NCBI GenBank assembly: GCA_001872285.1
Contig: MNXU01000038.1
Location: forward strand, 1 to 64,000
Source: Betaproteobacteria bacterium CG2_30_68_42
Lineage (GTDB): Bacteria; Pseudomonadota; Gammaproteobacteria; Burkholderiales; Rhodocyclaceae
Direction: 5' to 3'
Length of the DNA stretch: 64,000 nt
Shown here: piece by piece, positions 31,646 through 47,732 of the stretch
How the letters are laid out: the number at the start of each line of letters is the position of its first letter
Numbering within the stretch: the stretch's first letter is position 1
Notes under the pieces: generated by a model
What the model was told of the DNA's origin: nothing
What the model saw: only the letters and a program-made list of their open reading frames with translations
The model's database searches: none
Position numbers and translations under genes: made by a program

Positions 31646-32053
31646 ATGACGGAACACTACCGCACCCTCCGCGTTCTCGCGATCGCGTTTCTCGCCTCCG
31701 GTCTCGCAGGCGTTCATGCCCGGGCGGCCGACGTCGCGGGGCCGAAGTACCCCGACGTCATCGCCGCGAAGGTGCAGCCAGCAGGCGCAGGCAGCTTCGA
31801 TTTCGACGTGACGGTTTCGTCGCCCTACGACACGCCCGAGCGATACGCGGACGCATTCCGCGTGGCGGGCAGAGAGGGCCGCGTCTATGGCGAGCGGAAG
31901 CTGCTCCACGACCATGCCGGCGAGCAGCCCTTCACCCGCGAGCTGTACGGCGTGAAGGTGCCGCCCGGCGTCCGGACGGTCACGGTCCAGGCACGCGACC
32001 GGAAGTTCGGCTACGGCGGCAAGTCGATCGAGGTCGGCCTGCCGGGCCGCTGA
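31646..32053 (+). CDS. small exported protein of unknown function
   Basis: A 135-residue protein with an N-terminal signal peptide (VLAIAFLASGLAGVHARA). The mature part is mostly beta, with FDFDVTVSSPYDTPERYADAF, LLHDHAGEQPFTRELYGVKVP and TVTVQARDRKFGYGGKSIEVGLPG. I do not recognise a named family, but the conserved-looking HDHAGEQPFTR and GYGGK segments suggest a real, possibly metal-binding, periplasmic protein. A TATGCT -10-like hexamer is at 31595-31600. It ends 15 bp before a paired palindromic element. Confidence 0.72.
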   Translation: MTEHYRTLRVLAIAFLASGLAGVHARAADVAGPKYPDVIAAKVQPAGAGSFDFDVTVSSPYDTPERYADAFRVAGREGRVYGERKLLHDHAGEQPFTRELYGVKVPPGVRTVTVQARDRKFGYGGKSIEVGLPGR

Positions 32054-32067
32054 GCGGCCGAGGCAGG

Positions 32068-32143
32068 ATAATGGGGTCAGACACGATTATTGAAGCTGCC
32101 GCGCGTTCATAATGGCGTTCATAATGGTGTCTGACCCCATTAT
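32068..32143. repeat. paired 17-bp inverted element (ATAATGGGGTCAGACAC)
   Basis: Left arm 32068-32084 (ATAATGGGGTCAGACAC) and right arm 32127-32143 (GTGTCTGACCCCATTAT) are perfectly complementary. The 42-base interior contains a tandem 12-bp repeat, GCGTTCATAATG at 32103-32114 and 32115-32126. It lies between two converging genes and can form a strong hairpin in either transcript, so it may end transcription in both. The same arm core occurs at 46769-46834. Confidence 0.9.
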
Positions 32144-32155
32144 TGCCATGATCCC

Positions 32156-33022
32156 TTATCCTCGGAAGACGACCGTCTTCCTGCCATTGGCCATCACGCG
32201 GTGCTCGCTGTGCCACTTGACGGCGCGCGCGAGGACCATGCATTCGACATCGCGGCCGAGCGCCGCGAGGTCCTCCGGGCGCATGGTGTGATCCACACGA
32301 GCGGTGTCCTGCTCGATGATCGGACCTTCGTCGAGGTTCGGGGTGACGAAGTGCGCGGTCGCCCCGATGAGCTTCACGCCGCGCTCGTGCGCCTGGTGGT
32401 AGGGCCGGGCGCCCTTGAAGCTGGGCAGGAACGAGTGGTGGATGTTGATCGCGCGGCCCTGCAGCGCCTCGCACAGTTGCGGCGAGAGGACCTGCATGTA
32501 GCGCGCGAGCACCACCAGATCCACCCGCTGCTCGCGCACCAGTTCCATCAGTTTCTCCTCCTGCCGCGCCCGGGTGCGCGCATCGACCGGGAGATGGAAG
32601 AAGGGGATGTCGTAGGAGGCCGCGAGCTGGTAGAAGTCCCGGTGGTTGGAGACGATGGCGGGGATCTCCACGCGCAGCCAGCCGGTGCGGTAGCGGTAGA
32701 GCAGGTCGTTCAGGCAATGGCCGTGCTGCGAAACCAGGATGAGGACCCTCGGCGGGATTGCGGGATCGTGAATGCGCCAGTTCATCGAGAAGCGCACACC
32801 GAGCTCGCCGAATTCGCGCACGAGCCGCGCATGGTCGAACTCGCCGCGCCCGATCGAGAACACCACGCGCATGAAGAACAGCCCGGTCTCGGTGTCGGAA
32901 AACTGGTCGGCTTCCAGGATGTTGCCGCCGCGATCGAGCAGGAAGCCGGAGACGTGGAACACGATCCCCGGCCGGTCCGGGCAGGAGAGCGTGAGCACGT
33001 AGCCGGGCGGCGCGTCGCTCAT
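32156..33022 (-). CDS. purU: formyltetrahydrofolate deformylase
   Basis: Hydrolyses 10-formyltetrahydrofolate to formate and tetrahydrofolate, feeding formate to PurT and balancing one-carbon units. The 288-residue product has an N-terminal ACT domain (YVLTLSCPDRPGIVFHVSGFL). A formyltransferase domain follows with LVSQHGHCLNDLLYR, ARYMQVLS and the catalytic NIHHSFLPSFKGARPY. GATAHFVTPNLDEGPIIEQD is also characteristic. ATG 33022 begins MSDAPPGYVL; an upstream in-frame GTG is less likely. phaC lies upstream on the same strand, 46 bp away. Confidence 0.95.
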   Translation of the reverse strand: MSDAPPGYVLTLSCPDRPGIVFHVSGFLLDRGGNILEADQFSDTETGLFFMRVVFSIGRGEFDHARLVREFGELGVRFSMNWRIHDPAIPPRVLILVSQHGHCLNDLLYRYRTGWLRVEIPAIVSNHRDFYQLAASYDIPFFHLPVDARTRARQEEKLMELVREQRVDLVVLARYMQVLSPQLCEALQGRAINIHHSFLPSFKGARPYHQAHERGVKLIGATAHFVTPNLDEGPIIEQDTARVDHTMRPEDLAALGRDVECMVLARAVKWHSEHRVMANGRKTVVFRG

Positions 33023-44753: not shown

Positions 44754-46768
<2,015 letters not shown>

Positions 46769-46769
<1 letters not shown>

Positions 46770-46834
46770 AAATGGGGTCAGACACCATTTTGACCATTTT
46801 CAGATATCGGAGATATCGTGTCTGACCCCATTTC
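46769..46834. repeat. paired 17-bp inverted element (GAAATGGGGTCAGACAC) spanning the liuD-liuE junction
   Basis: Left arm 46769-46785 (GAAATGGGGTCAGACAC) and right arm 46818-46834 (GTGTCTGACCCCATTTC) are perfectly complementary. The 32-base interior includes GATATCGGAGATATC, itself a palindrome. The right arm contains the proposed liuE GTG start and the interior a GGAG 5 bases upstream of it. This element shares its core with that at 32068-32143. Confidence 0.9.
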
Positions 46835-47732
46835 TGCGGTGAAGATCGTCGAGGTCGGTCCGCGTGACGGCCTGCAGAACGAGGCGCGCGCGGTGCCGGC
46901 CGCGGTGAAGATCGAGCTGATCGATCGTCTCGCCGCGGCCGGGCTGCGCGTGATCGAGGCCACCGCCTTCGTCTCGCCCAAGTGGGTGCCGCAGATGGCC
47001 GACGCGGCACAGGTGATGGCCGGCATCCGGTCGCGGCCCGGCGTGCGCTATCCAGTGCTGGTGCCGAACCTGAAGGGCTTCGAGCTGGCGCTCGCTGCCG
47101 GCGCGCGCGAGATCGCGGTGTTCGGCGCGGCCTCGGAAGCCTTCTCGCGCCGGAACATCAACTGCTCGATCGCGGAATCGCTCGCGCGCTTCCGCCCCGT
47201 GATCGAGGCCGCCAGGGGCAACGGCATGCGCTGCCGCGGCTACGTGTCGTGCGTGCTCGGCTGTCCCTACCAGGGCGAGGTCGCCCCCGAAGCGGTGGCG
47301 GAGGTCACGGCCGCCCTCCACGACATGGGCTGCTACGAGGTCTCGCTCGGTGACACCATCGGCGTGGGCACGCCGGCCGCCACGCGCCGCATGCTGGAGG
47401 CGGTGCTGCGGCGCGTCCCGGTGGAAGCCGTGGCGGGCCATTTCCACGACACCTACGGGCAGGCGGTCGCCAACATCTACGCCGCGCTGGAGATGGGAGT
47501 GGCCGCCTTCGATGCCTCGGTGGCCGGGCTGGGCGGCTGCCCCTATGCGGCCGGCGCTTCCGGAAACGTCGCCACCGAGGACGTGGTCTATCTGCTCGAA
47601 GGCCTGGGCATCGCGACCGGCATCGACCTCGAACGTCTCGCGCAGGCGGGCAACTGGATCTGCGCCCAGCTCGGGCGCGAGAGCGGATCGAAGGTCGCGC
47701 GCGCACTCTCCGCCAGGCAATGCGCTCAATAG
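46818..47732 (+). CDS. liuE: hydroxymethylglutaryl-CoA lyase
   Basis: Cleaves HMG-CoA to acetyl-CoA and acetoacetate, the last step of leucine degradation. The 304-residue product has [35 protein letters not shown], and [37 protein letters not shown] and the conserved loop [24 protein letters not shown] follow; its Cys and metal ligands are typical. GTG 46818 with GGAG five bases upstream is the best start, but both lie within the inverted element. A second GTG at 46839 would begin at VKIVEVG and lacks a ribosome site. Confidence 0.94.

Follow-up and report, generated by a model that had tools for sequence, protein, structure and literature searches.

A dispersed TIR-type palindrome at the liuD–liuE junction that may supply the liuE start codon and tie LiuE to LiuD synthesis

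The window, by which we mean the whole stretch of 64,000 nucleotides that was analysed, carries the adjacent genes liuD and liuE with a palindromic element lodged between them. The best profile match of the liuD product is NF006367 (587.4 bits, slightly below the cut-off of 597), and the open reading frame downstream matches hydroxymethylglutaryl-CoA lyase (NF004283, 478.3 bits, cut-off 246). The features on which the analysis turns are as follows.

44754–46769, + strand: liuD, a biotin carboxylase plus biotinyl domain protein of 671 aa, with its TAG stop codon at 46767–46769
46768–46835: the whole TIR-type palindromic element at the liuD–liuE junction, longer arms included, as delimited by repeat search, genome-wide cores and cluster comparison
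46769–46785, + strand: left arm, 17 nt and perfect, sharing its first base with the end of the liuD stop codon
46772–46825, + strand: candidate relay ORF of 17 codons (speculative), with its ATG in the left arm and its TGA (46823–46825) inside the start of liuE
46809–46812, + strand: GGAG, Shine-Dalgarno-like, five bases 5' of GTG 46818 and within the element
46818–46834, + strand: right arm, 17 nt and perfect, opening with the proposed GTG of liuE
46818–47732, + strand: liuE, hydroxymethylglutaryl-CoA lyase, 304 aa if read from GTG 46818
46839–46841, + strand: alternative GTG start of liuE (the V of VKIVEVG), lacking a Shine-Dalgarno sequence
32068–32143: another copy of the element within the window, flanked by convergent ORFs (+ strand, ending at 32053; − strand, ending at 32156)

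The left arm is the exact reverse complement of the right arm, and the longer arms (46768–46788 and 46815–46835, 21 nt each) are complementary at 20 of 21 positions (95%) across a gap of 26 nt. Translated in the liuE frame, the right arm codes for M(V)SDPI plus two bases of the following codon. A preliminary description of this DNA had placed a palindrome with perfect 17-bp arms here, sharing the last base of the liuD TAG, with the GTG as first codon of its right arm and the GGAG five bases upstream inside it, and these coordinates are confirmed.

Perfect 17-nt inverted pairs that do not overlap and lie no more than 300 nt apart occur three times in the window, all within the two element copies, compared with one in total over 50 first-order Markov resamples of the window. 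The 12-nt core of the arms, GTGTCTGACCCC, has four matches in the window at one mismatch or fewer against a shuffle mean of 0.28, and is found 60 times in the 3.1-Mb genome, where the reversed pattern is found 0 times. Taken together, the resamples, the shuffle counts and the genome-wide core count make it very unlikely that the junction palindrome arose by chance. When one mismatch is tolerated, the 60 cores group into 31 clusters, which by eye comprise 21 with a left arm followed by a right arm, 7 single cores and 3 pairs in the same orientation. The bases outside the core vary among clusters and often agree between both arms of one cluster (AGAAAT/ATTTCT, GATAAAT/ATTTATC, GGAAAT/ATTTCC). 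The junction element is thus a dispersed, mobile-type repeat, as the preliminary description had supposed, and its paired unit spans at least 36 nt. A GGAG, GAGG or AGGA precedes the GTG in only 10 of the 60 arms, so the element does not as a rule bring a ribosome site with it.

Beyond its own genome the repeat is scarce. The core is present in 6 of the 61 genomes of the relatives search, own genome included, and the other five hold one copy each, which is the level of the reversed control (7 single matches). Of 274 genomes sampled from the class, a single one, its own, has the exact paired element, which occurs in 0 viral contigs. A text search of the literature for the 12-mer core returned matches only in papers on TMED2/SMO and human GJB2, which are non-bacterial by title.

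The arms start with GGGGTCAG, which fits the GGGGWSAS motif that passages of Di Nocera et al. 2013 (PMC3733652) report in terminal inverted repeats beside tyrosine transposases (TIRYT); an extract of PMC6006769 places 20 of 26 TIRYTs in one HuH subclass. The occurrence of single, paired and grouped copies is likewise as expected of TIR/TIRYT elements. The genome contains six Y1_Tnp matches, and two of these Y1 ORFs reach 87.8 and 79.6 bits with the NCBIfam model REP_Tyr_transpos (cut-off 80). At three Y1 transposase loci (L182, L184, L185) GGGGTCAG repeats flank both sides with different inner bases (GGGGTCAGGTCTAG, GGGGTCAGGTCTTGA and GGGGTCAGTTCTTTAC), which suggests that several TIRYT families share one genome. 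The weakest Y1 match is a 63-aa start fragment at the end of contig C62 (L162; REP_Tyr_transpos 5.4e-5, 23.1 bits, far below the cut-off of 80), preceded by GGGGTCAGACACGATTATTTTGTGC, the same repeat as at the liuD–liuE junction; contig C90 (L170) shares that start. Contigs C19 (L177) and C86 (L168) carry an ORF end (...GVGRPRKGENRV) that matches no family and runs into a junction-type repeat. From this arrangement we infer that the C62/C90 starts and the C19/C86 ends are two ends of one transposase gene, split by contig breaks. All four contigs end in transposase-like fragments adjoining the repeat, as if a multi-copy transposon had broken the assembly. An identity as GTAG-type REP was considered and rejected: the terminal GTAG tag is absent, GTAG falling within 12 nt outside the arm in 3 of 60 arms, at differing distances.

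We compared the junction with liuE loci of relatives, mostly beta- and gammaproteobacterial by record title and all from genera other than that of the host. The set comprises 109 loci with own locus excluded (29 from one search and 80 from another) and 107 distinct junctions; two pairs have identical junctions, and start counts are given per locus. An ATG or GTG stands exactly 18 nt 5' of the V of VKIVEVG in 92 of 109 loci, and an ATG lies 9–30 nt 5' of it in 103. The LiuD stop is within 300 nt upstream in 68 loci and within 60 nt in 58. In the host TCT occupies −18, and GTG 46818 at −21, in the right arm, is the sole upstream in-frame start. The LiuD tail ELVDFDPEAQ resembles ELVDFEPAK of genome G010, and liuD therefore seems intact. 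The element stands at the liuE start in 0 of the 109 related loci, on which ground an ancestral junction feature, looked for in these relatives, was rejected; because no same-genus genome was among those compared, an empty liuD–liuE site was not seen. One core-like match (one mismatch or fewer, 250 nt upstream searched) was obtained in L101, from an uncultured Halomonas sp., about 142 nt upstream of the VKIVEVG codon and not at the start; there the liuD–liuE junction of L101 holds two GGTCTGACCC-type motifs, which may be a different repeat occupying this junction.

That the usual liuE start has been displaced into the right arm of the element is a well-supported reading of these alignments, and GTG 46818 is the likely start of LiuE. 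The earlier proposal that a mobile-type repeat replaced the start of liuE is thus borne out by the related junctions and by the displaced position, whereas use of GTG 46818 in the cell is the part we infer.

Folding of the junction RNA (46740–46860) in silico gave z = −6.79, with 0 of 200 shuffles as stable, and the hairpin by itself is predicted at −36.7 kcal/mol. GTG 46818 has a predicted unpaired probability of 0.003, below that of all 108 relatives folded (median 0.58; L141, which has no usable start, was left out). In total fold energy the junction does not stand alone, 5 of the 108 being equally low or lower. In a simple model in which a ribosome shields the nucleotides after the liuD stop, the GTG is unpaired at 0.026 with 9 nt shielded, 0.35 with 10 nt and 0.41 from 12 nt on, while the GGAG becomes more paired, its unpaired probability falling from 0.68 to 0.24–0.31. 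A model variant that lets upstream RNA pair across the masked footprint frees the GTG only from 0.003 to 0.038. In silico, then, the hairpin would hide the liuE start, and occupancy of the liuD stop by a ribosome could make the GTG accessible; coupling is plausible at most, because the simple model gives release and the upstream-pairing variant only 0.038. The hiding put forward in the preliminary description is thus supported in silico, and the coupling finds backing in the first model, but hardly any in the second. A hairpin this strong might simply lower LiuE, and it is a speculation that the 17-codon ORF from ATG 46772 could bring ribosomes through it.

The explanation that we favour, with some reserve, is that a TIRYT-type element at the junction overwrote the liuE start, that GTG 46818 is now used and that the hairpin couples LiuE to LiuD. 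In outline, a non-autonomous terminal-inverted-repeat element of TIRYT type, a miniature kin of a Y1 'REP' transposase transposon, would have arrived at the liuD–liuE junction in this lineage, its insertion presumably driven by a transposase. The native liuE start and first few codons would have been lost or overwritten, and initiation would now take place at GTG 46818; since this start lies in the right arm, the N-terminus of LiuE would be the element-encoded (M)SDPI. Once transcribed, the element would fold into a hairpin (about −37 kcal/mol) in which the start codon is paired with the left arm, and free ribosomes would be expected to initiate poorly at GTG 46818. The hairpin directly adjoins the liuD stop, and a ribosome that terminates there may keep the left arm open and free the GTG; this release would tie LiuE to LiuD synthesis.

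Three other explanations were weighed. LiuE might begin at GTG 46839, just past the end of the element, which would then be a neutral intergenic insertion that removed about six codons and whose own GTG is unused. This second GTG is the more accessible in the fold (0.34 unpaired), a few relatives are also short at the N-terminus (ATG at −9 in L124 and at −6 in L147), and a passage of PMC3733652 cautions that REPs seen at the N-termini of ORFs may in many cases lie outside the gene. Against this, GTG 46839 has no Shine-Dalgarno sequence, its duplex with the anti-Shine-Dalgarno being +0.7 kcal/mol compared with −6.6 for GTG 46818; a protein from GTG 46839 would open right at VKIVEVG, shorter than every start in the 109 relatives' loci, whereas reading from 46818 meets no stop and yields an N-terminus close to the usual length. 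We therefore regard a start at 46839 as rather unlikely.

LiuE could also start at GTG 46818 with no coupling, the hairpin just lowering output or stabilising the mRNA as other REP-like hairpins may. The strong pairing of GTG 46818 fits such an arrangement, as does the model with upstream pairing, which gives no release; the tight contact between stop and arm speaks for coupling instead, as do the 10 nt of shielding that suffice in the simpler model and the membership of LiuD and LiuE in one pathway, their genes lying side by side in 68 of the 109 related loci (LiuD stop no more than 300 nt away, a count uncorrected for contig ends). An uncoupled start is in our judgement unlikely. It is far less credible that the hairpin is an intrinsic terminator or another conserved operon hairpin and not a mobile repeat: a strong hairpin does sit between two genes, but no T-run follows the right arm, the core has 60 copies dispersed in the genome and the junction hairpin element is absent from the relatives (0 of 109 loci), and on these three grounds a terminator was rejected.

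That several further genes contain the same element in frame, or have it at their start, was beyond what the preliminary description could see. Read as GTG TCT GAC CCC ATT (VSDPI), the core is in frame with, or at the start of, an HMM-supported gene in 9 of the 31 clusters, namely those of recB (two), murE, ftsW, sufS, tadA, an HPP-family gene, a FecCD permease/ABC ATPase and liuE. Five of these loci are listed here.

L158:1301–4963, contig C47: recB with two in-frame copies, 1221-aa ORF (TIGR00609, 741.2 bits), peptides NGVRHDIFIVSDPIS and NGVRHDKNIVSDPIY
L179:5993–7558, contig C40: murE with an in-frame copy in which one unit is repeated (TIGR01085, 467.6 bits)
L179:835–2013, contig C40: ftsW with an in-frame copy in the N-terminal tail (TIGR02614, 406.4 bits)
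L164:761–2008, contig C64: cysteine desulfurase of the sufS type, with a frame that, like that of liuE, opens in the right arm (TIGR01979, 479.8 bits)
L173:1247–3196, contig C8: FecCD permease and ABC ATPase bridged in a 650-aa open frame (PF01032, 270.5 bits; PF00005, 98.7 bits)

For recB, 4 of the 9 relatives' loci obtained were aligned; the first insert is absent in 4 of 4, at a point where own sequence is in addition short of about 20 residues present in the relatives, and the second is absent in 3 of the 4, the partial L225 being blank there. The NGVRHD peptide of murE is missing in 11 of 11 aligned relatives (12 loci returned, one of them own), at a place of variable length. For ftsW, starts were obtained in 10 of 11 relatives (not L205) and the element peptide is in none. 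Two cell-wall and division genes on contig C40 thus each have an in-frame copy. For sufS, the three closest of 11 relatives fetched begin near the residue where own sequence exits the element; the start is ambiguous because another GTG directly after the arm could be the native one. The element lies seven codons 5' of an ATG in tadA (NF008113, 189.5 bits) and five codons 5' of an ATG in the HPP-family gene (PF04982, 125.3 bits), and its role as a start is ambiguous in both. The FecCD/ABC bridge holds three element cores in one continuous frame, from which one or two proteins may be made. By a rough codon score, a guide only that missed ftsW, the remaining clusters lie between or upstream of genes, so coding use is a minority outcome.

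A broader and more tentative reading takes the lineage-specific TIR miniature element for a portable translation module: junction copies would have re-founded starts in hairpins tied to the upstream gene (liuE, perhaps sufS), and the recB, murE and ftsW copies would be tolerated as peptide inserts. One arm starts ATG GGG TCA GAC and the other GTG TCT GAC CCC, with an open peptide NGVRHD..VSDPI; because the arms carry starts and the peptide is open, junction copies could re-found operon starts. If so, several proteins of one genome would share an element-encoded segment, a tiny mobile palindrome could take over the point at which a metabolic gene begins to be translated while sparing the gene itself, and the symmetry of the palindrome itself would install a hairpin linking the gene's output to its upstream neighbour. 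The copies at liuE, sufS and tadA, together with the in-frame recB, murE and ftsW copies, would be natural tests of selfish repeats turning coding or regulatory.

The closest known relatives of the element are the TIR repeats of TIRtrons/TIRYT, which, in the sections of PMC3733652 that treat them, have the same GGGGWSAS at the arm ends and the same single, paired and grouped dispersed copies. TIRYTs are linked to a Y1/REP-type tyrosine transposase, whose paired gene appears here only as fragments at contig ends; unlike them, one copy here apparently provides an operon gene with its start codon. GTAG REPs and REPINs with RAYT are likewise short dispersed palindromes moved by the same kind of transposase, whereas the present element has no GTAG tag. 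Parts of PMC3733652 also describe REP copies that supply a stop codon, and others that lie within ORFs, recB among them, or at N-termini. Rickettsia palindromic elements (RPE) are read in frame within unrelated proteins, according to an excerpt of the review PMC10969869, and the element described here is also in frame in unrelated proteins (recB twice, murE, ftsW); RPE are about 150 bp and rickettsial, whereas this is a paired GGGGTCAG element of 36 nt or longer in a host that, by its best liuE matches, is probably a betaproteobacterium. In regulation of the mgtC–mgtB type, as outlined in a portion of PMC8092293, a start region buried in a hairpin is opened by upstream or intergenic translation, and the liuD–liuE junction could likewise hold a short intergenic ORF; in contrast, the present hairpin derives from a mobile repeat and its opening is an in silico prediction. 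No earlier account in which a palindromic element provides a start codon or brings about coupling stood among the literature matches listed, although one may exist. What is new as far as those matches go is the combination, a TIR-type element that appears to supply the start of an operon gene inside a hairpin abutting the upstream stop, within a kind of system that was already known.
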